Shown here one piece after another: positions 16,008 to 61,426 of a stretch of 64,000 nt of DNA. Source of the DNA: an uncultured Ignavibacteriota bacterium. GTDB taxonomy: Bacteria > Bacteroidota > Ignavibacteria > UBA10030 > UBA8401. The notes beneath the pieces are model-generated. The model was not told where the DNA came from and searched no databases. It was given only the letters and a program-made list of their open reading frames with translations. The translations under genes and the position numbers were made by a program. The stretch's first letter is position 1; each line of letters opens with the position of its first letter. Location: the NCBI GenBank assembly GCA_903884005.1, contig CAISDA010000044.1, positions 1 through 64,000 on the forward strand, in the 5' to 3' direction.

Positions 16008-18854
16008 ATGCCTATCATGAAAATTAAATTGTTCCTCGTTGTCATGCTTGCGTCGTGCCAGTGTGTCACAGCCCAGCAATCACGGTTCCAATACATATTT
16101 CCGAAACCGCAGTCCATTCTCAATTCCCGCGAAACGAATATCATTATTCGGCAGGGAGGCACGATCGACGGGTCGAGCCTGCAAGAGCACATGCCCGCAG
16201 TGACGGGATCTGTGAGCGGCGTTCATGCGGGGACATTCATGTTGTCCGATGATCATACGTCTCTGCAATTTCATTCCTCCGATGCTTTTTCGCCGAATGA
16301 AACGGTGACAGTCGCACTGCCGGCGGGCGTGAGAACCATCGACGGCAGCGACATCGGGGCGGTGTTGTTTTCCTTTGCGGTTTCACCGCAGACAGAGCAG
16401 ATGGCACTGTCGATGCGCGCACGCTCGGAACATGCCGTGTCCGCCGAAGACATCGGCGCGTCTGCCTCTATTGCACCCGTTCATACGGATTCGCTGCCTT
16501 CGGATCTGCCGAAGTTGACAGTGGGAATGTCGAACAATCCGTGCGACGGAAAGATCTTTCTGGCAAATCAGGCGCAAACTGTCACCAAAACCATCGGCAA
16601 TTATCTGCTCATCTATAACAATGACGGCACCATTAATCAATATAAAAAACTTTCCAAATCGGCAAACGGATTTAAGATCGAGCCGAACGGCGACCCTTCC
16701 TATAATTTGAAAGGAAGCGGTTCACGGGTCATCATGGATACGTCATTGACGGAAATCGACACCATACAGGGTGCCAATGGCTTAAAAACCGCTGGACACG
16801 ATTTCCTCCTGCTTCCGAACGGCCATGCAATACTTATGGCGAACGATCCACAGCCGGTCGATATGAGTCTGGTCGTTACGGGAGGGTACCCGGATGCCGC
16901 TGTGACGGGCTGCATTATCCAGGAACTCGATGCATCGAACAACGTCGTGTTTCAATGGCGGAGTTGGGACTATCTGCCCATAACTGCCTCGTATTTTGAC
17001 CTAACGCTCCCAACGGTTGACCTACTTCATCAAAATGCGTTGGCGCTCGACCGGGATGGCAACATCCTTCTGTCAATACGTCACTATTCCTGTATTGTGA
17101 AAATCAACCGGACGACTGGAGGAGTGGATTGGATCCTGGGAGGGAAACTCAATCAATTCACATTCATCAACGAGCATGCGTCCAATAGTCCGACCTATTT
17201 TTCATATCAGCATAATGTCGACGTCCTCCCGAACGGCAACATAACACTCTTCGACAACGGTACGCAGCACGTTCCGAACTATTCCCGGGGCGTCGAGTAT
17301 ACATTGGATGTGCAGAAAAAAACAGCCGTGATGGTATGGGACTACAGGCACACGCCCGATCTGTATGCCGATGCGATGGGGTCTGTGCAGCGGCTTAATA
17401 ACGGAAACACGCTTATCGGCTGGGGGAATACATCGTCGGCCGGGACCGCCGTGTTGACGGAAGTTCGTCCGGATAATACCATCGCGCTGGAGATGTTCCT
17501 GCCCAAAGGGCAATTTTGTTATCGCGCATACAAATATCCGTGGGCAAGTCAACTTCCGGCGGCGTCCGTGACGGTTCACGAGGTGCTGCAGGGCAACACG
17601 TACGCGTTTAAGACCGCAACGGATTCTACCGGAATAAAAATAAAATTCAAAACGCTGAACGCGTTGACGTATGCAAGCGCCAGCGTTACGAGGTATAATT
17701 ATGCTCCGCTCACGCCGTTATTCCTGGCCGATGCGCCGGTCATGGCCGCTCAATATTTTACATTCCAGGGCCTGGAAATTGCTTCCTTTAGCGGCCAGGG
17801 TGAAGTCGATGTGCGCAGTTTTCCCGCCATCTCGGCCCCCCAAAAAACAGTCGTTTATGTGAGGCCTCAGTACAGCGAACTGTTCATCCCGCTGCCCACG
17901 AGCTATGATTCGACGAAAAATATCCTGGCCTTTACGACGAGCGATTTCGGCGACTTTGCTTTTGCCGTGCCGCAGAGCGTTGCCGCGTTGTCGCCCGCTC
18001 CCATCTCGCCGAAAAACAACGAAACAGTCAATGGCGAATCGCCTATAACGCTGCAATGGGGAACTAGCGGCATTGTCCAGTCGTATCGTCTACAGGTGGC
18101 AGCCGATTCATTGTTCCAGGCTCCTGTGGTCGACAATGCGACGGTGACGTCAACGTCGCTCACGCTGAGCACGCTGATCAATAAGACGGGGTATTATTGG
18201 CGGGTGAACAGCACGAACACCGCCGGTACAAGCGCCTGGTCGGGTGCGGCTGCATTTCGGACGGCATCTCCTTTCGTCACGATGCTGTACCCGAACGGCG
18301 GCGAGCGATTGTCCGTCGATTCCACATACGTTGTCCGCTGGGTGTCCAACGTTCATGAATTGTCGAAAGTAGTGCTGATGAAGGGAAACGCTGTGGTTTC
18401 GGTGGTTGCGGACTCGGTCGTGTCGGGAACGAACGCGCTGCTGTGGCAGGTGCCGTCCGCACTCGCCAGCGATACTTCTTATAAAGTTGTCATAACAAAT
18501 TTGATTCGAACCGGTTTGCTCGATGCCAGTGACAGATCATTTGCGATAGGAAGAGGGCTGACCGGTGTTCCCGAGTCGAAACGCATCATCACCCGATTCC
18601 AACTCTCTCAAAATTTTCCCAATCCTTTCAATCCGTCCACGGTCATCGGCTACACGCTGCCGGTGAACAGTCATGTACTTCTGACGCTGTATGACATTGT
18701 CGGCCGTGAGGTTCGCACTCTCGTCGATGCGGCGAAGGAGGCGGGAATGCACACCGTTCTACTCGATGCGAGTGATCTGCCGGGCGGGGTGTACTTCTAT
18801 CGTCTGCACGCGGGCGATTTTTTTCAATCGAAGAAATTGACACTGCTGAAGTAA
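16008..18854 (+). CDS. secreted arylsulfotransferase-like protein with FN3 and T9SS sorting domain (paralogue 2)
   Basis: A 948-residue paralogue of the preceding protein. Signal peptide near MKIKLFLVVMLASCQCVTA (ATG 16008, or 16017 in the same frame), Ig-like domain, then the same propeller landmarks: HDFLLLPNGHAILM, VFQWRSWDYLP, LLHQNALALDRD, GGVDWILGGKLNQF, YQHNVDVLPNG. An FN3 domain (about 660-750), a PNGGERL-type beta domain (about 755-850) and a T9SS tail (LSQNFPNPFNPSTVIGYTLP, ending KKLTLLK) follow. The two proteins share order of domains but differ in accessory modules, which points to an old duplication. A hairpin at 18858-18889 follows the stop. Confidence 0.85.
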   Translation: MPIMKIKLFLVVMLASCQCVTAQQSRFQYIFPKPQSILNSRETNIIIRQGGTIDGSSLQEHMPAVTGSVSGVHAGTFMLSDDHTSLQFHSSDAFSPNETVTVALPAGVRTIDGSDIGAVLFSFAVSPQTEQMALSMRARSEHAVSAEDIGASASIAPVHTDSLPSDLPKLTVGMSNNPCDGKIFLANQAQTVTKTIGNYLLIYNNDGTINQYKKLSKSANGFKIEPNGDPSYNLKGSGSRVIMDTSLTEIDTIQGANGLKTAGHDFLLLPNGHAILMANDPQPVDMSLVVTGGYPDAAVTGCIIQELDASNNVVFQWRSWDYLPITASYFDLTLPTVDLLHQNALALDRDGNILLSIRHYSCIVKINRTTGGVDWILGGKLNQFTFINEHASNSPTYFSYQHNVDVLPNGNITLFDNGTQHVPNYSRGVEYTLDVQKKTAVMVWDYRHTPDLYADAMGSVQRLNNGNTLIGWGNTSSAGTAVLTEVRPDNTIALEMFLPKGQFCYRAYKYPWASQLPAASVTVHEVLQGNTYAFKTATDSTGIKIKFKTLNALTYASASVTRYNYAPLTPLFLADAPVMAAQYFTFQGLEIASFSGQGEVDVRSFPAISAPQKTVVYVRPQYSELFIPLPTSYDSTKNILAFTTSDFGDFAFAVPQSVAALSPAPISPKNNETVNGESPITLQWGTSGIVQSYRLQVAADSLFQAPVVDNATVTSTSLTLSTLINKTGYYWRVNSTNTAGTSAWSGAAAFRTASPFVTMLYPNGGERLSVDSTYVVRWVSNVHELSKVVLMKGNAVVSVVADSVVSGTNALLWQVPSALASDTSYKVVITNLIRTGLLDASDRSFAIGRGLTGVPESKRIITRFQLSQNFPNPFNPSTVIGYTLPVNSHVLLTLYDIVGREVRTLVDAAKEAGMHTVLLDASDLPGGVYFYRLHAGDFFQSKKLTLLK

Positions 18855-18857
18855 GTT

Positions 18858-18990
18858 AAGTGCACAGTCAGTGGGCCTGCTGCGCACTTCTTTCTCGAAT
18901 TACATCGCTGTCGTTACATCGGTGCGATGTAGGGCGAGATGTTATCTCGCCCGCTCGAGCGAAACGGTGCAGGGTTTTGTGAGTTACTAG
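18858..18990 (+). repeat. GGGCGAGAT palindromic element, full-length copy
   Basis: Begins with a near-perfect hairpin (AAGTGCACAG 18858-18867 / CTGCGCACTT 18880-18889) followed by CTTTCTC. ACATC-ggtgc-GATGT follows at 18916-18930, then the perfect core GGGCGAGAT-gtt-ATCTCGCCC at 18932-18952. GCTCGAGCGAAACGGTGCAG and TTTTGTGAGTTACT close it. It shares about 100 bases with the copy at 36660-36775. It separates the arylsulfotransferase gene from the convergent thioredoxin-fold gene; the first hairpin could act as a weak terminator. Confidence 0.8.
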
Positions 18991-19015: not shown

Positions 19016-19498
19016 TTATTGCTTCACGCCTTTCTCTTTTAAATAGTCGTCAAACTTCTGCTTGTCGTATCTGCTCTCGCCGATGTACGTCAGGATGTGC
19101 AGGAACATCGGCGCCTCCGAATAACCCGGAACAAGCGTGATCCCGTCTCCGTTACTCTTCATGAACAATGTTGCAGGATAGCCGGACACGCCCATGCCCT
19201 GTGCGAATTCTGCGGGGCTCATAGACTTGCCCTGGTACATGATGGGCGTCGTTCCTTCGGCGTTCAGCTTGATCATGGTGAAGTTCTTTTTAAGATAGTC
19301 CTTTACTTTGGCATCGGTGTATGTGTTGGCATCCATTTTTTTGCACCAGCTGCACCAGTCGGTATAGATGTCCACCAGTATGGTTTTCTTCGAGGCCTTT
19401 GCCTTTGCCATGCCTGCATTGAATGATTCCCACGTCTGCGCGGGAGCGGATGTAGACAGGAACATGAGAACGGCGATTGCAGCAAAAAATATTTTCAT
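19016..19498 (-). CDS. exported thioredoxin-fold protein
   Basis: A 160-residue protein with signal peptide MKIFFAAIAVLMFLSTSAPA. The thioredoxin-like active site WCSWC puts the Cys pair at residues 49 and 52, and GYPAT holds the cis-Pro at 108. It belongs to the thioredoxin_7/DUF255-like group of periplasmic disulfide reductases. Its start overlaps the stop of the glycosyltransferase gene before it (ATGA at 19498-19495), making it the last gene of the ten-gene surface operon. A role in reducing or folding the exported proteins of the operon is plausible but is inference. Confidence 0.85.
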   Translation of the reverse strand: MKIFFAAIAVLMFLSTSAPAQTWESFNAGMAKAKASKKTILVDIYTDWCSWCKKMDANTYTDAKVKDYLKKNFTMIKLNAEGTTPIMYQGKSMSPAEFAQGMGVSGYPATLFMKSNGDGITLVPGYSEAPMFLHILTYIGESRYDKQKFDDYLKEKGVKQ

Positions 19499-20622
19499 AA
19501 ACGTTGTCCTGAAAGTGGAATAATGTGGACCGAGGTGATGCTTTCACGGAATACCCGTTCGAACTTATCGATCATACCATCGATCGTGAAATTTTGTTCC
19601 ACGATGTGCCGTCCCGCAATTCCCATTGCCTTCGCCATGGCCTCATCCGAAAGGATCGACGTCATAGCGTGCGCAAGAGCCTGGGCGTTCTTGACCGGCA
19701 CAAGCAGGCCGGATGTTCCGTGCGCCACTATTTCGGGAATGCTGCTCGTGGCCGTGGCAATGGTGGGAATGCGCGCGGCCATTGCTTCAACGAGCACGTA
19801 CCCGAATCCTTCCCACAGCGACGGCAGCACAAGCATGGTGCTCTGCTTCAGAATATCCGGAACGTCGTTCCGGAATCCGAGCAACCGGACCCTGGTAGTG
19901 AGATGATGCTCGGCGATAAAGGATTCAAGCATCGACTGCATGGGGCCCACACCCGCCATAAGCAGCATGGCATCGGGAAATCGTGCGTGGATAGTTCTCC
20001 AGGCGTCGAGAAGGTAGCGTATGCCTTTGCGTTCGTCGAGCTGGCCAAGAAATGTGACGAATCGAGTCTGTGCCGGCAGGCCCAGCTCGTCGTGGAGCGA
20101 GCGAGCCAAGGGCGTGTCGAATGGGGCGAGGTCGATGCCCTTGTAGATGATGCGTGTGCGCGCCTTGTCCAGCCACGGCGCACTGTTGAGCACTGTCGTC
20201 TGGGTTGCAATGGAATTTACGACGAGACACGTGGCGAGTACGTTATAGGCGAATCGGTAGCGCAGCGAATTCTTCAGGGGATAATCGATCTCTCGGCTGG
20301 GCACCACGCCCGGTACGCCCGCGAGCTTCGCCGCAATGCCACCGAAGCGGAGTTCCTTGTCCATGTTCGTGCAAATGGCGTCAATGTTTTTTCGTTTCAT
20401 GAGACGCATCGTGTGCCAGATCACCAGCGGATCAAAGTCGCCGCCAATGCGCATCGTCTCCACGTCGAATCCCTTTTCCGCGGCGCGCTCCGCGAGTTCG
20501 GTGCCTGGACGGCAGAGCAGTGTCACAGCGTGGCCCCGCTGCTTCATGCCTGTCATCAGATCCATGAGGAAGACTTCGCCTCCGCCCCACATTTGTATCG
20601 AGCTGATAAAGAGAATGTTCAT
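19495..20622 (-). CDS. glycosyltransferase family 4
   Basis: A 375-residue GT-B enzyme starting MNILFISSIQMWGGGEVFL at 20622; the frame is open to 20712, but the upstream part has no coding character and crosses the palindromic repeat. GGGE near the N-terminus, FLGQLDERKGIRYLL in the linker and PSLWEGFGYVLVEAMA (the E-x7-E donor-binding motif) are typical of GT4. It probably adds a sugar to a lipid-linked glycan at the inner face of the membrane. No strong ribosome site is visible before the ATG. It is separated from the previous GT4 by only 46 bases, which hold a palindrome core. Confidence 0.88.
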   Translation of the reverse strand: MNILFISSIQMWGGGEVFLMDLMTGMKQRGHAVTLLCRPGTELAERAAEKGFDVETMRIGGDFDPLVIWHTMRLMKRKNIDAICTNMDKELRFGGIAAKLAGVPGVVPSREIDYPLKNSLRYRFAYNVLATCLVVNSIATQTTVLNSAPWLDKARTRIIYKGIDLAPFDTPLARSLHDELGLPAQTRFVTFLGQLDERKGIRYLLDAWRTIHARFPDAMLLMAGVGPMQSMLESFIAEHHLTTRVRLLGFRNDVPDILKQSTMLVLPSLWEGFGYVLVEAMAARIPTIATATSSIPEIVAHGTSGLLVPVKNAQALAHAMTSILSDEAMAKAMGIAGRHIVEQNFTIDGMIDKFERVFRESITSVHIIPLSGQRL

Positions 20623-20648
20623 AGGTAGATAATTATGTCTGTACCGGT

Positions 20649-20669
20649 GGGCGAGATAACATCTCGCCT
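20649..20669. repeat. GGGCGAGAT palindrome core within the operon
   Basis: GGGCGAGAT-aac-ATCTCGCCT occupies 20649-20669, touching the stop codon of the GT4 gene at 20669. Only the core is present, without the flanking parts seen in other copies. As RNA it would form a 9-bp hairpin between two cotranscribed genes. Confidence 0.75.
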
Positions 20670-21697
20670 CACAGTATGGTGTTATAGACGGCCAGGGTTT
20701 TTTCGGCGACACGGCTCCACAGAAATTCCCGTTTGATGTGTTCTTTCAATGCCGCGGTCTTCGGGGCGTTCAGCGCCCGTTCGATGCCGTTCCGAATGGA
20801 ATCGGGCGATGATGGATTCACGTACTCCGCCATGGCGTCAAAGTAATCTTTCGTTCCACCCACAGGCGTGATGACGATCTTCGCGCCGGCAAGCGCCGCT
20901 TCGAGCGCCGCAATGCCCGGAGTCTCGAATGTGGACGGCAGCGCGAACACATCGGCGGCTGCGTACGCGGAGGCAAGCATGTCCGAATCGTTCTTCAATC
21001 CGTCGATGATGAGTATGTTGCTGTTTTTTTTCGCCTCGGCGATGCACCGCTCGCCATACGGGCCCGGCGTAATGCGCCCGATGATCACGGCAGGATGATC
21101 CACTGTTTTCAGTGCCCGGATAAGATTCAGCACGTTCTTTCGTTCCGGGCCGATGTGTCCCACATTTAGAATGAATTTGTCGAGGCCGTACTGTTTTTTA
21201 AAGAGCGACGGATCGCCGAATTCAAAGCGCGGTTCCACGCCGTTCGGAACGACGGTGATCTTTGCGCCCGGAACGCCGATTCCTTTTTCAAGGACCAACC
21301 CTTCGTCGAATGTGTTCGGAAGCACTGCGCGCGACCATTCGCATATCTGCCGCGTGAAATAATAATCTGTCCATATCCCGGTGCGCAGGTGTTTCAACGC
21401 GGCGTTCGCAGCCAGCGTCATCCTGATCGAGGCGGGGGAGCGGCGCGTGTAAAAAATTGACGAGGTGGCGATGGGCAGACGGAGATCGTTCAGCACGCGC
21501 GCAAGATGGAATGTACCCAGGTTTGCCGAGAACAGGTGGACGATATCCGCCTGCTTCGCGTCGAAATGGTCCCACGGTTGAAAGAGCGAAACCGTGACGC
21601 CGAGTTTTTCGAGTTCGGATTTCGTCTGCATGATCTGCACACGCGGGCCGCCATGCAGAATCGACACGGCTTGGTAACATGCGATGGTTACGTTCAT
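20669..21697 (-). CDS. glycosyltransferase family 4
   Basis: A 342-residue GT-B enzyme. The N-terminal half has ILHGGPRVQIMQTKSELEKL, and the C-terminal half has FILNVGHIGPERKNVLNLI and PSTFETPGIAALEAALAGA, where the E-x7-E motif begins at the Glu of FETPG. It resembles GT4 enzymes of capsule and O-antigen clusters. Its start overlaps the stop of the deacetylase fusion gene (ATGA at 21697-21694). Its own stop abuts the palindrome core at 20649-20669. Sugar specificity is unknown. Confidence 0.88.
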   Translation of the reverse strand: MNVTIACYQAVSILHGGPRVQIMQTKSELEKLGVTVSLFQPWDHFDAKQADIVHLFSANLGTFHLARVLNDLRLPIATSSIFYTRRSPASIRMTLAANAALKHLRTGIWTDYYFTRQICEWSRAVLPNTFDEGLVLEKGIGVPGAKITVVPNGVEPRFEFGDPSLFKKQYGLDKFILNVGHIGPERKNVLNLIRALKTVDHPAVIIGRITPGPYGERCIAEAKKNSNILIIDGLKNDSDMLASAYAAADVFALPSTFETPGIAALEAALAGAKIVITPVGGTKDYFDAMAEYVNPSSPDSIRNGIERALNAPKTAALKEHIKREFLWSRVAEKTLAVYNTIL

Positions 21698-23241
21698 TGT
21701 GTTGTTTTATACCAGTAGTCTAACATGTTGATCAATGGATGGCGCGGGTCGAATTTTCGCGCGCGCAGTATGTCTTCCGGAATTGCCGCGGTGCCGTGCC
21801 GGTGAACCCGGCGCGCTTCTGTGATGGTGAGCCTGCCGTCGATCTTCGTGATGATCTCCTCATTTCCGGGCAGCGCGATCCGGTACCATACATCGCCGCT
21901 CGCACGTGCCGGGATGGTGATGCTGCCGTTGTCGAGCGTGAACTGCGGCCTCACAGCGATCCTTTTTTTCCACCATGCCGCATAGGCGGAGTACGAGAGC
22001 ATCGGGATCTTCAGCTCATTGATCAGCGAAAAAATTTCATCGAACACTTCCAAATGGTGGTGCGTGGGATGGTGGTAGAAACACATGGGCTCGCGTGAAA
22101 CGATCCGGTTCATGGCGCATGTGCGGAAATAGTCGCGCATCTGCAGGGACGTATAGCGCGAACGTTTCATGCTACCCACGCAGATCGGGTGAATGGGGAG
22201 CTGCATGACGGAGGATGGGCCGCCAGCTGTGACCGGAAAAAACGGGAGATCGTCGTAGTCGAGACTGAATTCCGATGAATACGCCATTTCTAATTCGTTG
22301 TAGACGGAGCCCACGGCGGCATTCCATGTACCGCAGGGCGCCGATGCTCCGTTGACCGTGAATCCTGCTTCGCGTAACAGATGAAGTCCCGTACCGAAAT
22401 TCGCCAGGACGTTTTTCCTGACGGCGGATGTTTCATGCGTATAGCAGTGCAGGCCGATCTCCTGGCCGCTGAAGGACGAAAAAAAATCGAGCCAGCGTTC
22501 ATGGCTCTGAACGTCGACAAACCACGTGCCGGGCACGCCGTGCCTCGCGCAGACGTCGTATAATTCCCGTAGTTCCGTTTCGCTGCCCTTGTCGGTATCC
22601 ACGCGAAACGTGAAGATGGTCGGGTGCCCGTCCGGATAATACCAGGTATGAACGAAGGGGAGCGCGCGCCTGTGGTGGAGGAGTTCAAGGATGTTCGTCA
22701 CCAACTGGCGTATGGACCCTTTGGACACGGCCGCGACACGTTCCGACGGGAGCCTGTCCGGCGGCGCGTAAAAATTTTTTCGCCTGCTCGCTGTCGAAAG
22801 GATGAGCGGTGATACCGCGTATGGCAGCGAGACGACCGTCCCCGCGCCATTTGCAATGATCTGCACCGATGTGCCGCCATCCACGCGGTATCCGCCGCTC
22901 TTCGTGATAACGGTGCCGGTACTGTCGATATCAAGGATCGACGCCGGAGAAAACGGAGCGCAGTCGTTCGGCGCAATGGACGTGAAATGTTTTTTCGAAT
23001 ACGTGCAGTCGAGAAAAAGCCTCGCGGCGCCGTTGTCCGTGAGTATCGAGCCTCCCGATGCGAGATAGGCGGCAAGGTCCCTGTGCTGCATGGTGGTGGG
23101 TGCGGCATTGACGATCATCACGGCAAAGGAGTCCGGGGACATTGTCTGCGAAGCATCGTAGACACCCCACGCCGCGCCGATCTGCGTCAGCAGCAGCTCC
23201 CATCCCGCATCCTGCTTCAATAATCCGATCGTGAGGTTCAC
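21694..23241 (-). CDS. polysaccharide deacetylase-like (CE4) protein with N-terminal amidotransferase-like domain
   Basis: A 515-residue protein. Residues 1-150 look like a class I amidotransferase/ThuA-type alpha-beta domain (WGVYDASQTMSPDSFAVMIV, YLASGGSILTDN) without an evident catalytic Cys. Residues 205-430 carry the NodB-type motifs: RVDTD 213-217 (metal Asp), HCYTH 265-269 (H-x3-H metal ligands), APCG 301-304 in place of RxPY, and HHPTHHH 390-396. A C-terminal beta domain of about 90 residues completes it. No signal peptide is visible, so it may act on a cytoplasmic or membrane-associated glycan intermediate. It is coupled by ATGA to both neighbours (flippase and GT4), which ties it to glycan assembly. 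The replaced Arg motif means the exact reaction may differ from N-deacetylation. Confidence 0.75.
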   Translation of the reverse strand: MNLTIGLLKQDAGWELLLTQIGAAWGVYDASQTMSPDSFAVMIVNAAPTTMQHRDLAAYLASGGSILTDNGAARLFLDCTYSKKHFTSIAPNDCAPFSPASILDIDSTGTVITKSGGYRVDGGTSVQIIANGAGTVVSLPYAVSPLILSTASRRKNFYAPPDRLPSERVAAVSKGSIRQLVTNILELLHHRRALPFVHTWYYPDGHPTIFTFRVDTDKGSETELRELYDVCARHGVPGTWFVDVQSHERWLDFFSSFSGQEIGLHCYTHETSAVRKNVLANFGTGLHLLREAGFTVNGASAPCGTWNAAVGSVYNELEMAYSSEFSLDYDDLPFFPVTAGGPSSVMQLPIHPICVGSMKRSRYTSLQMRDYFRTCAMNRIVSREPMCFYHHPTHHHLEVFDEIFSLINELKIPMLSYSAYAAWWKKRIAVRPQFTLDNGSITIPARASGDVWYRIALPGNEEIITKIDGRLTITEARRVHRHGTAAIPEDILRARKFDPRHPLINMLDYWYKTTQ

Positions 23242-24662
23242 ACTAGTCGTTCCTTTAAAAAAATGACGTCATTCTTCGTGATCGCTTTCATTGCCATTGC
23301 ACTAAGCAAATATACAAGCACCGCTGCCGGGATCAGGAGAAATATGGAAATATACGAAAAGATCACGAGAAAGCACGCCATTGCAAGCGATGAAAGAAGA
23401 GGCTTTACGATATGGGCAAACGAGCGTGCGGGAAAAAGCGGCCCGGCCTTCACGGCCATCGAGCCTGCGAGCGTGATCTCTCCGACGACCAACCCCGCCG
23501 ATGCGCCGATGGACGAGAACATATAAATGAGCGGGAGAAGGAGCACGATGGTGGCCGTTGCAATAACGGTCGTGGCCGTTCCGTAATACCGTTCACGGCC
23601 TGTGGCAATGAGCGGGTACGAGAAGAGGCTGTTGAGTATCGTGAAGAAAAAATACCAGATCTGTATCTGCAGCACCGGAGCCGCGCCGGCGTACTGAGCG
23701 CCGTAGACCGCTTCTAAAATTCGCGGAGCGAGAATGGATCCTCCGATGCAGATGGGAAGACAAAGAAGGAAGATATATTTCGCTATCCTCTCGAGATGCT
23801 GAGGAAGCGACAGCGGGGCATTCGCATAAATCCGGGCGACGAACGGAAAGAACATTGAATACATGACACGATCGATCGCGAGCACAAAAAATACGAGTTT
23901 GGCTGCAGCGCTGTACCGAGCGACCTCAGCGGTCGTCGAAAATATCCCCAGCGCAACGGAAGGGAAATTCAACAGCGCCTGCGCCGCGATCACTGCGGCG
24001 CCCACCGGCAGCGCCTGACGAAAGACCGTCCTCCACGAGTACCGTGCAGCGGCATCGCCCTGCTGTTCATGCTTCTGTGTGCGCCTGGACGGACCGGAGC
24101 GTACGTATGCGGCCCACAGCAGTACGGCCTGAGCAGTCATGCCGGCGCCGTAGCAGAAGGGGACGAACCAGCGATAGTTCAACGGAGTAAGGGCCAGAAG
24201 TATCGCCGCTGCAAAAATGAGCGCCGCCGCAATTTTTCCGATGCCGGCGATGGTGAGCGATTCTCTCCCCTGAAAATACCATTCCAGTTGAAACGACAGG
24301 GGAAGCAGGACGATCGAAAAAAAGAATGCTGCTGCGGCCAGAGCCGACGGAGCGCCGAACACATACACCGCGCCCGATACCAGACAGAATACGCACGCCA
24401 GAAGTGCCCGGAGAGCGGTGATCGTGCGGACGAGCGTTACGGCAGGCACTTTCCGCTCTGCAACGTTGAGGGCGCCGATGATGTGAAGTCCGGGGCTGCT
24501 GAAGAGCACGCCGTAGGAAAGGACCGCCATGCCGAAATTGATCGTTCCGAAAGAGTCGGGATCGAGCGTGCGCGCCATGAACGCCGTGGTCACGAATCCG
24601 AGCAGCCGCACGACGGCATCGCTTCCGAAGATGGCGAGGAAATTTTGAGCGGTCCTTTTCAC
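23238..24662 (-). CDS. oligosaccharide flippase, Wzx/MATE-like
   Basis: A 474-residue integral membrane protein with about 12-14 hydrophobic helices. The N-terminus NFLAIFGSDAVVRLLGFVTT and the region LDPDSFGTINFGMAVLSYG are typical of the Wzx/MVF polysaccharide transporter family. It should flip the lipid-linked glycan made by the neighbouring glycosyltransferases across the inner membrane. It overlaps both the upstream GT4 (24662/24659) and the downstream deacetylase fusion (23241/23238), so the three are translated as a unit. Confidence 0.88.
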   Translation of the reverse strand: MKRTAQNFLAIFGSDAVVRLLGFVTTAFMARTLDPDSFGTINFGMAVLSYGVLFSSPGLHIIGALNVAERKVPAVTLVRTITALRALLACVFCLVSGAVYVFGAPSALAAAAFFFSIVLLPLSFQLEWYFQGRESLTIAGIGKIAAALIFAAAILLALTPLNYRWFVPFCYGAGMTAQAVLLWAAYVRSGPSRRTQKHEQQGDAAARYSWRTVFRQALPVGAAVIAAQALLNFPSVALGIFSTTAEVARYSAAAKLVFFVLAIDRVMYSMFFPFVARIYANAPLSLPQHLERIAKYIFLLCLPICIGGSILAPRILEAVYGAQYAGAAPVLQIQIWYFFFTILNSLFSYPLIATGRERYYGTATTVIATATIVLLLPLIYMFSSIGASAGLVVGEITLAGSMAVKAGPLFPARSFAHIVKPLLSSLAMACFLVIFSYISIFLLIPAAVLVYLLSAMAMKAITKNDVIFLKERLV

Positions 24663-25642
24663 GTGGACAGTGTTCCCATCAGTTCAGTGAGCGCCACGTG
24701 CCGCCGTTCGAGGCTGAAATTTTCGACGATGCGCCGGCGCGCTGCCGCGCCGCGCTCAATCGGTGCATGCAGGGCCGCTTTGACCTGGCGCTGCGCGTCA
24801 GCGATGTTCCCATGGTCGCACAGGTATCCCGCATCGCCGATCGCAGTGGGGATGCCGCCGTTGTGAGTACCGACAGGCACGCACTCGCATAACATTGCTT
24901 CGCAGAGTGAATTGGGCAGTCCCTCGCGCATCGACAGTTGTGCATAGACTTTCGCCTCCTGATACAACAACAGCAGTTCGTGCGGCGGGAGGTACGAAGA
25001 AATGCGTACATTTTCAGGCACGCGCAGTGTTGTAATGATCTCCTCGGTCGGTCCGATCAGCACGAAGCGGATATCGGGGAGCGTGCGCGCAATGCCGAGG
25101 AAGAAATCCACGCCTTTGATCTTCACGCGCGCCCGATCGGGAGCCGATGCCACCATCAGGACCATCGGGCGTTTCACGCCGGCAGGCTTCCATGCTTCTG
25201 CGTCGTATCCCGTCGGGAGAACCGAAATATTCCTGCCGTCGTAGTTGGCAAGCCGCATGGCTTCGATTTTCAGGAACATGTCCACGGCGAGCACCGCATC
25301 CGCGTGCATGATACCATAGCGCACAATGGGGGCACGCCACCAGCTGTTCCAAATGCCGTACTTGAGTTCGCGAATGTCGGCGACATCGATGCCGCCGAGC
25401 ACGATGACGGATCGTTTGCCGAATATTTTTGTGAGGAGAACAAGAACGGATGAATAGACGGATGCAAACCAGGAATACGTGATGGAGACGTTCTTCAAGG
25501 CGGCAAGGTAGCGGATGATGGCGCGCATCCCGGATGCGACGACGACGGTCAGCGAATAGGATTTTCCCAGCAGGACGATGTCCTGTTGAACGAACGATGC
25601 GCGGAATGTCGATGTAAAGAGTATGTGCGGTGCGCGGTTCAC
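24659..25642 (-). CDS. glycosyltransferase family 4
   Basis: A 327-residue GT-B enzyme, slightly short for GT4. RPMVLMVASAPDRARVKIKG begins the donor domain and REGLPNSLCEAMLCECVPVG is the E-x7-E motif. The N-terminal acceptor domain is compact (FTSTFRASFVQQDIVLLGKS). It follows the PorV-like gene by only 11 bases and overlaps the flippase start, linking the secretion-type genes and the glycan genes in one transcript. Confidence 0.86.
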   Translation of the reverse strand: MNRAPHILFTSTFRASFVQQDIVLLGKSYSLTVVVASGMRAIIRYLAALKNVSITYSWFASVYSSVLVLLTKIFGKRSVIVLGGIDVADIRELKYGIWNSWWRAPIVRYGIMHADAVLAVDMFLKIEAMRLANYDGRNISVLPTGYDAEAWKPAGVKRPMVLMVASAPDRARVKIKGVDFFLGIARTLPDIRFVLIGPTEEIITTLRVPENVRISSYLPPHELLLLYQEAKVYAQLSMREGLPNSLCEAMLCECVPVGTHNGGIPTAIGDAGYLCDHGNIADAQRQVKAALHAPIERGAAARRRIVENFSLERRHVALTELMGTLST

Positions 25643-25653
25643 GTGTGCCCGGT

Positions 25654-26547
25654 TTATATTCGGAACGAGAGCGAAAAAATATGAGCTGTGCCGAGGCCCG
25701 ATTGGAACGGCACGAATGCGTAATCCACCCTCATCATGCCGTAGGCAACACCCAGGCCGCCGGAGAGTACCTTTGCCTCATACCCCGTCTGATACCCGGC
25801 GCGAAGTGCGAAGGTGTCGTCGAAACTGAGTTCGCCGCCCATGTGGATGTGAGCCGTTGATGCCGTGAATGGTTTCACCACATCGCCGTTCACCGTATAG
25901 GTGAAGTGTTCGGTGAGCGCGCCGTTATAGGAGACCCCTGCACGGATCAGTGCCGGCAGTTCGATCGGGTCATTGTTCATCTGGTTGACCGAACCGAGAT
26001 TGCTCAACGATAGTCCCAGGGCAAGCGCCGGCGACACCCGATACACGCTGCCGATATCGAATGCGTAGCCGCTTGCTTCGTCCACGTAAATTTTTTCGTA
26101 GAGAAATTTTGCGCTGATGCCGATCGAGAGTGCGTCAGCCGCTTTCATGCTTGCCGATCCGGTGATAGCCAGATCGTGGGCGTTGAATGTCCCTTCGGGA
26201 TCTCCGGGCTGCGTTCTGACCTCGATGTTGTTCACGCTGGTGGTGTTGAACGAAAAGCCCAGGGCGACGGTCTCGCCGTGAACGGCCGCTCCAACATATT
26301 CCGTGGAGACGTCCGTGATCCAGCTTTTATGCATCACGGTGAAGTCCGTACGATCGACGAAGGAGAGGGCTGCCGGATTATAATACGTCGCCGTGCCGTC
26401 CATCGCCGATGCCGCCGCCGCTTCGCCCATTGCCACAGACCGTGCGCCGACGCCGAGTTTGAGGAATGTCATGCCCGTCGTCGCCGGGCCGCCGTAGAGG
26501 ACTGCCGAGGCGGCAACAAAGAACATAATGTGTAGGATGGTTTTCAT
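25654..26547 (-). CDS. PorV/PorQ-family outer-membrane protein (copy 2 of a tandem pair)
   Basis: A 297-residue barrel protein with signal peptide MKTILHIMFFVAASAVLYGG. The stretch FLKLGVGARSVAMGEAAAAS and YYNPAALSF are the hallmark start of PorV/PorQ (UPF0164-like) proteins; the remainder shows amphipathic strands ending SFRI. PorV in Porphyromonas is the FadL-like shuttle that binds T9SS cargo tails and hands them to the attachment complex. This copy overlaps the preceding PorV-like gene by one base and sits between a T9SS cargo gene and glycan genes. It is probably an accessory or cargo-specific PorV relative. Confidence 0.8.
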   Translation of the reverse strand: MKTILHIMFFVAASAVLYGGPATTGMTFLKLGVGARSVAMGEAAAASAMDGTATYYNPAALSFVDRTDFTVMHKSWITDVSTEYVGAAVHGETVALGFSFNTTSVNNIEVRTQPGDPEGTFNAHDLAITGSASMKAADALSIGISAKFLYEKIYVDEASGYAFDIGSVYRVSPALALGLSLSNLGSVNQMNNDPIELPALIRAGVSYNGALTEHFTYTVNGDVVKPFTASTAHIHMGGELSFDDTFALRAGYQTGYEAKVLSGGLGVAYGMMRVDYAFVPFQSGLGTAHIFSLSFRI

Positions 26548-27497
26548 CAGAAGCCTGTCGATAAGGAAATTATATGCATCGCAAAATAGTTGTACGGCTC
26601 GATGACGTACGCGTAATGAATCGCCGGTTTCATGCCGGCGATTGACGTGCGCAGCGTGAAGCCGAATGTCGGTGCAGCTTGTTTCGCATCATCCAGGTTC
26701 CAATGATCGATGCCGGTGCGGAGCGAAAATTCTTCGCTCAGGTTGACCTCCGCACCCATGCGGACGATCGTCGTCGACTTGTTGCTGGATTCGATCTCCG
26801 CCGAAACGATGCCCAGTTTGTCTCCGACTGCATACGAGAGCCCGAGGATATTGAGTGTCGGAAATTTATCGATCGTCGTGTTTCCCTGCTGTCCGTAGAG
26901 CGTGGATGTGTCCCATTTGTATTTCGACATGACGTCGCGCACTGCTGCGCCGAGCGTGAACCGTTCCGAGAGAAGGATCATGACCCCGAAATCGAGACCG
27001 AAGGAAGAGGTGGTCACATCCGTGTACAGCCGTGAATAATAAATTTTCGGCGTGACGCCGATGGACACGTATTTTGACGGCCTCATCCCGAATGACAGTG
27101 CAAACTGATTTTCAGATACCGTGAGGTTGCCGGTTGGAAAACCGTCCCCGTCGCGTCCGTCGATATTTTTTGTGCCTGCGTTGATCACGCGCAGCGATAC
27201 GCCTGCAGCGGGCCCGATGGCCTGCGTGTAGGCAAGCATGTTAAACGACCGGTCCAGGCTCAACGCGCCGTACGACACCATTGCCGTGCGGGCCGTCTGG
27301 AACGGGATCGATGCGGGATTGTAATATCCGGCGAGTTCCGATGCCGTCACGGCAGTCATGGCATTGCTCATGCCCATGCCTCGGGCGCCGAATCCCATGC
27401 GTGCAAAAGTTCCGGCTGTTCCGGCGAGCTGCGCCTCCGCGCTCGCGCAGAGACACAGCGCGAAGACAAGCGACACGATAACACTTCGATTGATCAT
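26547..27497 (-). CDS. PorV/PorQ-family outer-membrane protein (copy 1 of a tandem pair)
   Basis: A 316-residue barrel protein, signal peptide MINRSVIVSLVFALCLCASA. It carries FARMGFGARGMGMSNAMTAV and GYYNPASIPF, the same PorV/PorQ opening as the next gene, and ends in a Phe (IISLSTGF), as many outer-membrane barrels do. It lies 13 bases after the Asp-box T9SS cargo. The pair differ widely in sequence, so they are not a recent duplicate. A role in moving or anchoring the cargo encoded upstream is inferred from PorV biology and proximity. Confidence 0.8.
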   Translation of the reverse strand: MINRSVIVSLVFALCLCASAEAQLAGTAGTFARMGFGARGMGMSNAMTAVTASELAGYYNPASIPFQTARTAMVSYGALSLDRSFNMLAYTQAIGPAAGVSLRVINAGTKNIDGRDGDGFPTGNLTVSENQFALSFGMRPSKYVSIGVTPKIYYSRLYTDVTTSSFGLDFGVMILLSERFTLGAAVRDVMSKYKWDTSTLYGQQGNTTIDKFPTLNILGLSYAVGDKLGIVSAEIESSNKSTTIVRMGAEVNLSEEFSLRTGIDHWNLDDAKQAAPTFGFTLRTSIAGMKPAIHYAYVIEPYNYFAMHIISLSTGF

Positions 27498-27510
27498 GAG
27501 AAAATAATAA

Positions 27511-29103
27511 TTATTGAAGTACGAGAATTTTGCCCCAGACGGGGTCGCCGTTGCCTATGATCACCTGGTAAAAATAGACGCCGTTGGCAACTTGATGCTG
27601 AGTGTCGTCCCTGCCGTTCCAGATCTCGTCCATCTCACGCGCCGCAGACCGTGGCGCATTTTGTATGAGCGTACGGACCAGGTTCATGCCGAAATCGAAG
27701 ATCCGTATCGTCGCGCCGATGCTGCTGGAGGAGATGGTCGCTCCCGAACCCGCGGTTGAATAATGAATGCGCACGACTTCGTCATCCGGTGAAAACGGAT
27801 TCGGGTATGCGTATGTGTCGGTCTTCGATGCCAGAGCCTGCGCGGCGCGAAGGATGGTCCATTTGCTTCCAAACGGCATGCTGCCATTGTCCACGGTCGT
27901 CGCCGTGCCGTCACTGCCTCCGAACCAAGCCGTGGTGCCGAGCGAGGCGGCGGAGTAGAACTTGGTCGATGTGATGCGCTGTTTCGACGTTTCATCGTAG
28001 ATCGTACCGGTGGAGCTCCACGACACGCCGAGATCCGCGGAGCGGAAGATCCCGTTGTCTGTCACTGCATAGACGATGCTGCCGTTGATGCCGACGTTGT
28101 GGACGAATTCGCCGAGCAGCGCCGTCTTCCATGTCTGACCGCCGTCGGCCGTCCAGCTGATGCCGCGCTTTTCATTCTGGTCGGTGGTGTTCACCGAGCC
28201 GGCCCACAGGATGCTCTGCGTGCCGATCGTTTGTTTTGCCATTCCCACAACGAAGTTTCCGGAAATTGGGGACGACTGATTTTGGTGACTGTATTTTGTC
28301 CACGACGTGCCGCCATCGGTCGATTTGTTGATGCCGCCGGCGGTGCCGATCCAGATCGTGTTGTTATCAACGGCAAGCACTGAAAATGCTCGATGGTTCA
28401 TGCTTCCATCGAGTCCTACCGCGCCGCTGGTGGGGGAGAGATCGAATTTCAGCGTGTCCGTCAGTTTGATCTCGTCACGCGTGTCCGGCGGCAGGATAAC
28501 ACGCTGCCATGTGGCGCCTTTGTTTGTGGACTTGCGCGCTTCGCCTGCAAACGATGTGATCCACACGGCGCTGTCGGTGACGGCGATGTCGTATGTGATG
28601 TTATTGATCGCGGTCGTGATGCCGAGCGCGCGAATCGTGCTGAACGCGTTGTAGTAGAGCGTGTCCACATTGTTCTTGTCGAGCGGCTGGGGGAACGAAC
28701 GCCACGTGTCGCCGCCGTCGGCCGAATAATGGAGTCCGCTTCCTTCGGGGAGCGGATTGCCGTCTTTCACGACAGTGTGCGCGGTGGCGACCCAGACGTC
28801 ATTGCCGTGCACGGCGATCGCTGACACATCTTCGGTGCCGAATTCTGCCGAGTTAAAATAATGCGTCCATGTCGCGCCGCCGTCCGTCGACCGGCTGAGT
28901 CCTTTTCCGGTGCCAAGCCAGATCGTTGAACCGTTGATGAGCATATCCGAGACGCTGTTGCTGTTGAGCATGGATGATCCGGCAATGGACTTCGCCCTGG
29001 CAGGCTCGAATGATCCTTCACTCAGAATGATCTGCGCCGTCCCGGCATCGGTCAGAAACAGCACGAGCGAGGCAAGAGCAGTAATGTACGATCGATATGT
29101 CAT
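27511..29103 (-). CDS. secreted Asp-box (BNR/VPS10-like) repeat protein with divergent T9SS tail
   Basis: A 530-residue exported protein (signal peptide ending near LTDAGTA). It has about six Asp-box repeats of the form S-x-D-G-G-x-T-W (STDGGATW, SADGGDTW, STNKGATW, STDGGTSW, TADGGQTW, SADLGVSW), so a beta-propeller of the sialidase/Ycf48 shape is likely; sialidase catalytic residues are not evident. The C-terminus has YPNPFSPDDEVVRIHY, then a FlgD-like beta domain with IWNGRDDTQHQVANGVYFYQ, a variant of the T9SS sorting domain. It overlaps the lipoprotein gene before it (29103/29100) and is followed by two PorV-like genes. Confidence 0.82.
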   Translation of the reverse strand: MTYRSYITALASLVLFLTDAGTAQIILSEGSFEPARAKSIAGSSMLNSNSVSDMLINGSTIWLGTGKGLSRSTDGGATWTHYFNSAEFGTEDVSAIAVHGNDVWVATAHTVVKDGNPLPEGSGLHYSADGGDTWRSFPQPLDKNNVDTLYYNAFSTIRALGITTAINNITYDIAVTDSAVWITSFAGEARKSTNKGATWQRVILPPDTRDEIKLTDTLKFDLSPTSGAVGLDGSMNHRAFSVLAVDNNTIWIGTAGGINKSTDGGTSWTKYSHQNQSSPISGNFVVGMAKQTIGTQSILWAGSVNTTDQNEKRGISWTADGGQTWKTALLGEFVHNVGINGSIVYAVTDNGIFRSADLGVSWSSTGTIYDETSKQRITSTKFYSAASLGTTAWFGGSDGTATTVDNGSMPFGSKWTILRAAQALASKTDTYAYPNPFSPDDEVVRIHYSTAGSGATISSSSIGATIRIFDFGMNLVRTLIQNAPRSAAREMDEIWNGRDDTQHQVANGVYFYQVIIGNGDPVWGKILVLQ

Positions 29104-29906
29104 TTGATGTAAATTCGTTTGGTCAGTGAATTCGAGATCGCTCCCGATTTATCCTTTGCCGAAAAAACAAAATCATAATACGCGGTCACCGCCGTGGTCA
29201 CCGGTATGCGAAGCGTATAGCGGCCGTCGCCGGCGATGTCGTCTCCGCTGGGCATACCGAATAACGGCAGCACGGCAGCGCTGCCGTCGTCGTACAGCGG
29301 AAGCATCACGACATAGCCGCCGTCCGGACGATAGGACGTCAGTGTCACAGCGTCGATCGAGGCAAGGCCGTCCGAATCGGCTACCATCACCGATACCTTG
29401 ATATAATTCGGCGTGCTGCCTGTCGGCAGGAACACCGTGTCCGGCGCGATCAGTTGCGAGATACGCGGAGGACGGTTGTTCGATGAAATGATAGAGACGG
29501 GGAGTGACAGGATGTTGCTCACCAATCCCTCATCGCCCGATGCCTGGATCTGTATGCTGTACTTGCCCACGGCCGATGTTGTGAGATGCAGGGGAATATT
29601 GCCGGAATAAATACCGTCGTTGGCCTTCAGATCTGCCCCCGTGCCGGTATCCAGCAGCGAATACACCGCCGTGGCCCCATCCGGAGCCGTTATGACGGCG
29701 GTCACCGAGGTCACATTCGTGCCTCGCGCCGTTGCCGCGACCGCGATCATTGTATCGACTGCGGCAGGCAGCCGTCCGACATCGATGACGCTCAGCGATG
29801 CCGTGGCAAAGGAGAGGAATGGGGGAGCCGGACTATCGACCGTTGTCGTGGGCAGACTGCATCCCGCCAGTACAACAATCATGATGACGGATAGAAAGTG
29901 GTTCAT
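29100..29906 (-). CDS. predicted lipoprotein with Ig-like/choice-of-anchor beta domains
   Basis: A 268-residue protein with a type II signal peptide: MNHFLSVIMIVVLAGC puts the lipidated Cys at residue 16 (lipobox LAGC). Two beta-rich domains follow; NDGIYSGNIPLHL and GDGRYTLRIPV are repeats of a pattern seen in bacterial Ig-like domains. Function is unknown. It is the first gene of the surface operon, about 165 bases downstream of a good sigma70-like promoter, and its stop overlaps the Asp-box T9SS gene start by ATGA. A surface-exposed partner of the cargo is a reasonable guess. Confidence 0.75.
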   Translation of the reverse strand: MNHFLSVIMIVVLAGCSLPTTTVDSPAPPFLSFATASLSVIDVGRLPAAVDTMIAVAATARGTNVTSVTAVITAPDGATAVYSLLDTGTGADLKANDGIYSGNIPLHLTTSAVGKYSIQIQASGDEGLVSNILSLPVSIISSNNRPPRISQLIAPDTVFLPTGSTPNYIKVSVMVADSDGLASIDAVTLTSYRPDGGYVVMLPLYDDGSAAVLPLFGMPSGDDIAGDGRYTLRIPVTTAVTAYYDFVFSAKDKSGAISNSLTKRIYIK

Positions 29907-29981
29907 TGGGATTTGAAATAAAAATACCGAGAGACTGCGATCGCCGCCCGGCTAAGAAGAGGCAATCTGCTACGATTTAAA

Positions 29982-30037
29982 ATATAGTTTGAGTGAACAT
30001 GCCGCGCTGACGAGCCGTATATTGTATCAAACTATAT
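29982..30037. promoter_or_regulatory. perfect inverted repeat in the leader of the ten-gene surface operon
   Basis: ATATAGTTTGA (29982-29992) and TCAAACTATAT (30027-30037) are perfect 11-base inverted repeats separated by 34 bases. They lie between the predicted promoter and the lipoprotein start. Similarity continues outward (GCTACGAT versus the complement of ATCGATAGC). This could be a paired operator or an mRNA hairpin. Confidence 0.45.
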
Positions 30038-30076
30038 CGATAGCAGACCGTGTATGTGTGAGGAGCGTATTGCTAA

Positions 30077-30105
30077 AAATTACAGAAATATTTCGCATTT
30101 GTCAA
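30077..30105 (-). promoter_or_regulatory. sigma70-like promoter of the ten-gene surface operon
   Basis: On the minus strand a perfect TTGACA (30105-30100), a 17-base spacer and TAATTT (30082-30077) form the best promoter match seen in the window. It lies just downstream of the site-2 protease gene's stop at 30111 and would give a leader of about 165 bases to the lipoprotein gene at 29906. Confidence 0.55.
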
Positions 30106-30110
30106 GGAAT

Positions 30111-31046
30111 TTAAAATAAAATTGAAAACGGGGACGGCGAGAACGACAGTGCAAAGATGCCCCACGCGAGCCAGCCGATTTTCATGCGCAGCGGATCGAG
30201 CCCTTCCTCGTTGGACACGGGCGGATGAATGAGCTTCACGACGAAAAACAACACCGCTCCCCAGAAGAGCCAGCCGGTCCAGCCGAAATGAATTTCCACT
30301 CCGATCGCCGGTAAAAATCCCATGAGCCCAATGGCCACCAACAACCCGAAGGCGGTCCGGGAGATCGTTTTGTGCGCATCGCCGAACATTGCATACGAGA
30401 CATGCCCTCCGTCCAATTGACCGATGGGAAAAAGATTCATCGCCGTCACGAACAATCCGAACCATCCCGTGCAGAGAAACGGATAGTGATACATTTCGCT
30501 CATCGGCGGCACAAATTGATCCATCGGGTGCGTCAGCAGCAGCGACAGCGATTCGTACATGATGGATGTGCCAAAACGCAATTCCAGTCCGCCGCCGCTG
30601 TGTTTCAAAAAATAATCCGGGTGTATCGAAAGAATGAATTCCTTTCCAGGAAGATGCGTGAAGCCGTAAATGAGCACGGCAAGGCTGGCAATGAATCCTG
30701 CGATCGGGCCGGCCACGCCAATGTCGAACATTGCCCGCTTGGACGGAACGGGCGTTCGTGTCTTAATGACTGCGCCGAGCGTGCCAAAATTCAGAAATCC
30801 GGGCATCGTGGGGAAGGGAATGAAAAAGGGCAGCGTGGCATCGACGCCGTGCAGGCGCGATGCGAAGTAATGGCCGAATTCGTGCGTTCCGAGTATGAAC
30901 AGGAGCGCCGCCGCGTACGGGAGCCCGGCGGCGATGTTCGCCACGTCAAACGGATCGACGTTCAGCCAGGCAGCCCCGGCGACAGCGGTCGTGAAAAATG
31001 TTGCGGCAAATAACGCCGTATGCAATAAGATTTTTGGTGCGGACAT
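30111..31046 (-). CDS. site-2 protease family (M50) intramembrane metalloprotease
   Basis: A 311-residue polytopic inner-membrane protease. The zinc-binding HEFGH motif lies at residues 55-59 and the third ligand motif LDGGH at about 217-221, both within hydrophobic segments. PFFIPFPTMPGFLNFGTLGA between them is typical of the S2P subgroup without a PDZ domain. About six membrane helices are visible. It may cleave membrane-bound anti-sigma factors or signal peptides, but no such partner is encoded nearby. It follows the DUF1207-like gene by 63 bases on the same strand. Confidence 0.9.
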   Translation of the reverse strand: MSAPKILLHTALFAATFFTTAVAGAAWLNVDPFDVANIAAGLPYAAALLFILGTHEFGHYFASRLHGVDATLPFFIPFPTMPGFLNFGTLGAVIKTRTPVPSKRAMFDIGVAGPIAGFIASLAVLIYGFTHLPGKEFILSIHPDYFLKHSGGGLELRFGTSIMYESLSLLLTHPMDQFVPPMSEMYHYPFLCTGWFGLFVTAMNLFPIGQLDGGHVSYAMFGDAHKTISRTAFGLLVAIGLMGFLPAIGVEIHFGWTGWLFWGAVLFFVVKLIHPPVSNEEGLDPLRMKIGWLAWGIFALSFSPSPFSILF

Positions 31047-36659: not shown

Positions 36660-36775
36660 CTGTTCGCCTGCGGCGAACTTTTTTCTCTGAAGGACCTCGC
36701 TGCCGTTACATCGGTGCGATGCAGGGCGAGATGGTATCTCGCCCGCTCGAGCGAAGCGGTGCAAGTTTTGGTGTT
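36660..36775 (+). repeat. GGGCGAGAT palindromic element, full-length copy
   Basis: Begins with a perfect hairpin GTTCGCC-tgc-GGCGAAC (36662-36678) followed by TTTTTT (36679-36684). ACATC-ggtgc-GATGC follows, then the core GGGCGAGAT-ggt-ATCTCGCCC (36724-36744) and GCTCGAGCGAAGCGGTGCAA. The terminator-like hairpin points to the plus strand although both neighbouring genes are on the minus strand, so it is better seen as part of the element than as a gene terminator. Confidence 0.82.
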
Positions 36776-58244: not shown

Positions 58245-58300
58245 TAGGGCGAGATGTTATCTCGCCCGCTCGAGCGAAGCGGTGCGAGGTGCTCGGGAGT
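58245..58300 (+). repeat. GGGCGAGAT palindromic element at the pseudogene breakpoint
   Basis: Core GGGCGAGAT-gtt-ATCTCGCCC at 58247-58267, identical to the core at 18932-18952, followed by GCTCGAGCGAAGCGGTGCGA. The left-hand hairpin and ACATC/GATGT parts are missing and are replaced by the truncated end of the GT39 pseudogene. Confidence 0.8.
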
Positions 58301-61405: not shown

Positions 61406-61426
61406 AGGCGAGATAACATCTCGCCC
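61406..61426 (-). repeat. GGGCGAGAT palindromic element, minus orientation
   Basis: Core AGGCGAGAT-aac-ATCTCGCCC at 61406-61426; on the minus strand it is followed by GTACCGCGAAGCGGTGCGAG (61405-61386), the same right-hand flank as the copy at 58247. It lies in the copA to phoH gap and includes the stop codon of the 59-codon ORF. Confidence 0.75.

Follow-up and report, generated by a model that had tools for sequence, protein, structure and literature searches.

Why does a secreted beta-propeller protein share an operon with two outer membrane barrels and a set of genes for making a glycan? The question is raised by a 64,000-nucleotide stretch of DNA (the window; positions 1 to 64,000 of contig CAISDA010000044.1, assembly GCA_903884005.1) from an uncultured Ignavibacteriota bacterium, in which ten genes, designated A to J, read from 29906 to 19016 on the minus strand. 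Genes A to D encode a surface core, genes E to I form a glycan cassette, and J encodes a thioredoxin-fold protein. Our preferred reading, to which we assign a probability of roughly 0.38, is that the operon encodes a second surface complex of the type IX secretion system (T9SS) kind, of the PorZ/PorQ sort, together with a lipid-linked glycan pathway that this complex would serve. This reading is supported by the glycosyltransferase gene that follows D throughout the window's family, by the spacing of the deacetylase gene in another class, by the difference from control T9SS loci, and by exchange of the cassette. It is also supported by the Foldseek ranking of B and by the precedent of PorQ, PorZ, and anionic lipopolysaccharide (A-LPS) in Porphyromonas gingivalis.

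Linkage of the surface core to glycan genes

We confirmed all ten open reading frames (ORFs) and checked the gene families against Pfam and NCBIfam. The core starts with A (29100..29906), a lipoprotein with Ig-like 'choice-of-anchor X' stretches and a Cys16 that is invariant across 26 alignment rows. B (27511..29103) is a secreted Asp-box beta-propeller whose C-terminal domain (about residues 425-530) resembles a sorting domain, and C (26547..27497) and D (25654..26547) are outer membrane barrels of the PorV/PorQ family. The cassette opens with the GT4 glycosyltransferase E (24659..25642), followed by the Wzx-type flippase F (Polysacc_synt; 23238..24662), the CE4 deacetylase-like G (21694..23241), the GT4 glycosyltransferases H (20669..21697) and I (19495..20622), and the thioredoxin-fold protein J (19016..19498), with labels for E, F, H, I, and J from Pfam. 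J has a CSWC motif and a signal-peptide-like start, and it ends the conserved slot. Neighboring genes overlap by 4 bases at A/B, E/F, F/G, G/H, and I/J and by 1 base at C/D, with gaps of 13, 11, and 46 bases at B/C, D/E, and H/I. The last value takes ATG 20622 as the start of I, for which the ORF list offers an upstream GTG at 20712 instead; with ATG 20622, no gap exceeds 46 bases, in agreement with the initial annotation's description of the ten genes.

Most product labels in that annotation also stand (the lipoprotein, the three GT4 enzymes, the flippase, the thioredoxin fold, the CE4 part of G, and PorV-like for D), while C falls just under its family cut-off. The exception is the amidotransferase half proposed for G: Pfam gives only a sub-threshold CE4 match (PF01522, 19.5 bits; cut-off 23.1), and no amidotransferase is among the Foldseek matches listed. 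The predicted structure of G (predicted local distance difference test score [pLDDT] of 93) matches 3rxz, ArnD (8t0j), and WbmS (3hft), and residues D215, D217, H265, and H269, which we take to be the metal site, are invariant in 29 rows. By its predicted structure and the invariant Asp/His residues, G has a CE4 deacetylase fold. F scores 22.9 bits against the O-glycosylation flippase model, far below its cut-off of 720.

Within the window's family we sampled 21 relatives, and the gene after D was readable in 19; the other two, G001 and G018, either yielded no such locus or had a contig that stopped too early. The gene after D encodes a glycosyltransferase in all 19. In 18 it is E, and in the remaining genome, G002, it is a contig-cut ORF matching the glycosyltransferase that holds this position in two loci, L202 and L214 (37% identity, 5e-59). 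Farther in, the cassette varies: of the 17 members with E to G readable, 7 have F and 10 lack it, and the position of I is held by a GT9 gene in most relatives and by a GT4 gene in few. One relative (G010; locus L071, 12297-13040) has an extra ORF between C and D, presumably methyltransferase-like.

In sister families f2-f6, E-F-G-H follows D in 0 of the 17 genomes in which the core locus was read. The gene after D in these genomes is a J-type thioredoxin (Trx) gene in 12, GT2 in 2, and FemAB, GT39-like, or an unlabelled ORF in 1 each. Where E-F-G-H genes were found in these families, at 15 loci, they lie away from the core. A TMEM260-like gene (PF11028, protein O-mannosyltransferase-like) lies near these unlinked genes at 8 of the 15 loci (L084, L090, L092, L096, L098, L100, L113, and L121) and near linked E-F-G-H at 0 of 30 loci, a count in which some genomes appear twice and some loci are short.

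Scanning public genomes with the B alignment gave 245 relatives, and our named-locus counts cover the best 80 of these 245. Nearly all 80 are labelled Ignavibacteria, Ignavibacteriae, Ignavibacteriales, Melioribacter or Melioribacteraceae, Stygiobacter, or unspecified Bacteroidetes/Bacteroidota; Chlorobiaceae, uncultured Chlorobi, uncultured bacterium, and Ectothiorhodospiraceae occur once each. At loci with enough sequence, A lies just 5' of B (70 of 72), C within two genes 3' of B (70 of 72), D within four genes 3' of B (65 of 67), and K, the gene upstream of A in the window, within three genes 5' of B (59 of 65). We classed the gene after D at 62 of the 80 loci, leaving out 18 with no D within four genes past B or with fewer than 1100 bases beyond. 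The classes are FemAB type (23), GT4 (16), Trx (13), none (5), GT2 (3), and GT39-like (2). The FemAB-type proteins match FemAB/acetyltransferase families, not glycosyltransferases; we counted them as glycan-type because a GT4 or GT39-like gene comes next in all 23.

Counted strictly, 43 of the 62 loci have a glycan-type gene as the first on the same strand after D, and 49 have one among the next three. At control loci the first gene is glycan-type after 0 of 20 true PorV genes and 0 of 19 PorZ genes, and 1 of 385 control-locus genes is glycan-type at any position, where the controls come from families f1-f6 and the 62 loci from named public genomes, and where the hidden Markov models for the glycan label were seeded from the cassette genes themselves, so that sugar genes of other kinds could go unnoticed in the controls.

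Across the phylum, B occurs at E <= 1e-40 in 126 of 296 sampled genomes, and the A-D core recurs across Ignavibacteria and other classes. A CE4 gene was found in 28 of 198 genomes: in 22 (19 from f32 and 3 from f1) it sits on the same strand as B, 2.8-4.7 kb beyond it, 5 carry it elsewhere, and 1 lacks B. In f32, which belongs to another class, the distance is 4.4-4.7 kb in all 19 sampled CE4-bearing genomes. Gene order, whose conservation the initial annotation had proposed to check, holds well beyond close strains and to a degree far above chance. Eight f32 loci were read, as part of a phylum-wide draw of 40 B loci, with GT4-Wzx-CE4-GT4 complete in 4, partial in 2, and missing in 2; one f32 genome has the A-B pair tandemly duplicated 5' of C-D (L293, 9429-15521). 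In that draw of 40, B was located in 39, of which 15 had a glycan-type gene directly after D and 12 had no recognised D. The linkage of the propeller and PorV-like genes to glycan genes is established as real, old, and recurrent, and it is frequent, not universal.

Trees of the individual proteins trace how the cassette has moved. On the B tree, the slot states can be explained with 9 changes, a number that none of 200 shuffles matched or undercut. At L202 and L214, B lies inside a FemAB-type clade, yet the cassette is GT4-Wzx-CE4-GT4-GT9; the CE4 gene groups with that of G002 from the window's family (100/99), and the GT9 gene groups with the FemAB-type clade. This discordance between CE4 on one side and B and GT9 on the other means that the interior was exchanged while the flanks were kept. 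All 21 slot GT9s fall in a single clade that is separate from 47 convergent GT9s (FastTree), so the association of the core with GT9 is old and has been held. The unlinked CE4 genes also form one clade (97/95), which would fit one later detachment; the tree is rooted at its midpoint only, and independent gains could also account for it. We rejected a young insertion of glycan genes in the window's family, given that f32, from another class, shares the order and that the unlinked CE4 genes fall into a single clade. The proposal that the surface protein is anchored to its own glycan proved too strict, as the same A-D core lies beside several cassettes or none, and E-F-G-H does not follow D in the sister genomes.

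The same data bear on the idea that the place after D is simply insertion-prone, with envelope genes co-regulated or tolerated there and having no physical or functional contact with A-D. The cassettes do differ, 10 of 17 readable relatives lack the flippase, and the core stands alone in many families, all of which this idea would explain. It accounts poorly for the contrast between 43 of 62 named loci and 0 of 39 control T9SS loci, for the core and CE4 spacing kept in two classes, and for the single clade of slot GT9s. We consider it unlikely.

Protein B and its barrels beside the genome's T9SS

As a T9SS client would require, the genome encodes the translocon SprA (1099 bits) and the sortase PorU (968 bits), both away from the operon. 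Its true PorV (C6:225050, 254.6 bits) lies directly beside PorU, its true PorQ is at C20:178983 (271.6 bits), and its true PorZ is at C72:207137 (364 bits). PorV, PorQ, PorU, and PorZ thus all have over-cut-off representatives on contigs other than the operon's. C and D are two of about twenty PorV-family proteins in the genome (27 and 23 matching stretches in the PorV and PorQ searches). D passes the PorV/PorQ family model NF033709 (171.4 bits; cut-off 90) and matches the PorV structure 6h3i by profile (E 5e-24), and C comes just under the cut-off (84.2 bits) with a weaker profile match to 6h3i (E 5e-7). Neither reaches the PorV model NF033710 (cut-off 250; C 35.9 and D 79.8 bits) or the PorQ model NF033711 (cut-off 220; C 44.5 and D 87.7 bits). 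Because the true PorU, PorV, PorQ, and PorZ are encoded elsewhere, we regard C and D as paralogues and not as the shuttle; on this point the initial annotation's interpretation is not supported. For the same reason we rejected C or D as the genome's PorQ, and B as its PorZ.

The predicted structure of B (pLDDT 85) consists of one propeller (about residues 44-410) and a C-terminal beta domain. Its top Foldseek match is the glycan sensor BT4663; PorZ (5m11) comes eighth (E 2e-12), with a TM-score of only 0.33. By VIA-align, the highest Z score, 27, is to GH74 enzymes, and many unrelated propellers reach about 25, so the fold by itself is a poor guide to function; the VIA-align matches listed do not include PorZ, which counts neither way. 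Against the PorZ model NF052228, which covers two propellers and the C-terminal domain (cut-off 260), B scores 21.7 bits, from the C-terminal part only.

PorV-family barrels beside a propeller whose best Foldseek match is a glycan sensor, and a flippase in the window, could also be read as an outer membrane device that exports or presents the lipid-linked polysaccharide itself, with no protein acceptor. Pfam recognised no polymerase or capsule-export family in the operon, and 10 of the 17 family members do without the flippase. Such a device seems very improbable to us.

The tail of B had been taken for that of a T9SS cargo protein, and its homology to sorting domains is clear, although it misses the type A cargo model TIGR04183 (cut-off 23 bits), to which B gave no match. 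Two neighboring large proteins, starting at 13400 and 16008, pass this model with 23.4 and 32.3 bits, and a B ortholog (L187, 19.0 bits) and PorZ (18.3 bits) fall below the cut-off. That B and PorZ both miss a cut-off passed by the two neighboring cargo proteins is a weak pointer in favor of a PorZ-like complex. No type B sorting model is among the matches of B at E <= 0.01. In profile-profile comparison with tails from the same genomes, the B tail matched cargo tails at E 1.9e-18, PorU tails at 2e-15 (a set of 21 rows from 20 loci, one row being another large protein), and PorZ tails at 2e-11. Neither this comparison nor the curated models showed the B tail to be PorZ-specific.

These tails raise the question of whether B, or A, is itself the acceptor of the oligosaccharide made by E to I, through C-terminal anchoring or general O-glycosylation. 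Operon order and the homology of the B tail to cargo tails speak for this, and T9SS cargo of P. gingivalis is joined to A-LPS after cleavage (PMC8545088). The TMEM260-like gene near 8 of the 15 unlinked E-H loci is a further hint of protein glycosylation. On the other side, the B tail misses the type A model, B is conserved (37-61% identity to the window's B) beside very different cassettes or none, and Pfam recognised no oligosaccharyltransferase in the operon. We think it somewhat unlikely that B or A is the acceptor. B is present in one copy in all but two of the 126 B-bearing genomes, and its strong conservation and near-universal single-copy state fit a resident component better than ordinary cargo.

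Cysteines are scarce in the core. In the window, B and D have none, the two of C lie in its signal region, and A has only the lipid-bearing one, with 0 to 4 in other rows; a role for J as a disulfide helper for A-D is unlikely, as these proteins are nearly without cysteine.

Flanks of the operon

Upstream of A lies K (30111..31046, minus strand), a membrane peptidase gene that is probably, from its motif, M50-type (site-2-protease-like); it is possibly part of the same unit. The string TTGACA-17-TAATTT, named initially as the operon's promoter, does exist between K and A (30105-30077, minus strand), and the evidence for its role as a promoter is weak. It was absent from the results of a sigma-70 scan, which gave 9 promoters against a shuffle mean of 7.8, no excess. 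A loose Bacteroidota-type pattern occurs 5' of A in 6 of 14 sequences (the window and 13 relatives); shuffling gave a mean of 2.8 and a maximum of 6. On these results we dropped the promoter as a strong feature.

A 19-base palindrome, GGCGAGATRWYATCTCGCC, has five copies in the window (18933-18951, 20650-20668, 36725-36743, 58248-58266, and 61407-61425) where none are expected at up to 2 mismatches. One copy lies in the H-I gap and one after J. Genome-wide, there are 47 exact sites and 0 for the reversed control.

Beyond J, two tandem large secreted proteins are encoded on the plus strand (13400-15970 and 16008-18854), convergent with the operon, and both pass the T9SS type A sorting model; we take them to be arylsulfotransferase-like. 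They occupy the place where many relatives (L063, L066, L075, and others) carry an opposite-strand GT9 gene pair that faces the operon end after J.

A possible surface glycan system

The closest known arrangement is that of PorZ and PorQ in P. gingivalis, where PorQ anchors PorZ on the surface (PMC5562754) and PorZ binds A-LPS and keeps its C-terminal domain uncleaved (PMC8545088). Protection of such tails by cognate PorV-like barrels has been proposed in a review (PMC10202324). The operon shares with PorZ-PorQ a secreted propeller with a C-terminal beta domain, a PorV/PorQ-family barrel beside it, and a link to a surface glycan. It differs in that B has one propeller and PorZ two, in its gene linkage to glycan synthesis, in its extra lipoprotein and second barrel, and in the presence of true PorZ and PorQ elsewhere in the genome. 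By analogy, B with C or D would fit the PorZ-PorQ plan, with A and the linked glycan pathway as additions.

Two other systems resemble parts of the operon. Type B C-terminal domain proteins with a PorP/SprF barrel (SprB-SprF and PG1035-PorP) are secreted proteins with their own PorV-like anchor barrel, as here, and the adjacent sprB and sprF genes are a precedent for a client encoded beside its barrel (PMC9143113). C and D, however, belong to the PorV/PorQ family, not PorP, and B is without a type B match. The Bacteroides LFG O-glycosylation locus has conserved outer genes, a species-specific glycosyltransferase interior, and a wzx flippase (PMC12871550), much like the fixed core and variable interior seen here. 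In our locus the conserved part is an outer membrane and surface module, and F falls far short of the flippase model noted above.

On our preferred reading of a second PorZ/PorQ-like complex, B would use its C-terminal domain for export by the T9SS, would retain that domain, and would be held on the outer membrane by C, D, or both, beside lipoprotein A. E, H, and I would assemble a short oligosaccharide on a lipid carrier at the inner membrane, G would deacetylate it, and F would flip it. At the surface, the propeller of B may bind the glycan or its carrier, for display or for passing to an acceptor. The core would stay constant while the interior glycosyltransferases, exchanged between lineages, set the glycan.

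Several findings weigh against this reading. Pfam recognised no initiating transferase, polymerase, or ligase in the operon, and a J/Trx gene directly follows D in most sister-family genomes (12 of 17). The A-B or A-D genes occur without labelled glycan genes in f23, f24, f28, f29, f33, f39, f40, and f44. The likeness of B to PorZ is not specific, given the low TM-score, the GH74 enzymes at the top, and unrelated propellers within 2-3 Z units. By profile, the B tail is nearest to cargo tails and not to PorZ tails. Among curated models, B matches the ends of the PorU and PorZ models, a weak pointer because one neighboring cargo protein also matches the PorU-model end and other proteins match the PorZ-model end. 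Finally, one genome of f42 (G199) has B and SprA and no PorU over the cut-off.

That genome is possibly a case of a T9SS without its sortase. PorU is present in all 10 tested genomes of the class that lack B and in 19 of 20 tested B-bearing genomes. A wider proposal, which we put forward as doubtful, is that the locus represents an undescribed phylum-wide surface glycoconjugate system, in which a constant T9SS-type receiver (A-B-C-D) and an exchangeable cassette work in parallel with PorU-PorZ to attach or display lineage-specific glycans, even in a lineage that has a T9SS and no over-cut-off PorU. Searches of the open-licence literature in PubMed Central listed no description of this neighborhood.

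For T9SS surfaces, A-LPS and PorZ of Porphyromonas are a documented case of a glycan finding its protein partner (PMC8545088). The constant propeller and barrel module with block-swapped glycan genes offers natural replicates for locating the part that reads the glycan. Our reading would give the Ignavibacteria, represented here almost only by metagenome-assembled records, a surface system that makes a definite prediction. It would also suggest a role for the uncharacterised protein B, which 126 of the 296 genomes sampled in the phylum carry.

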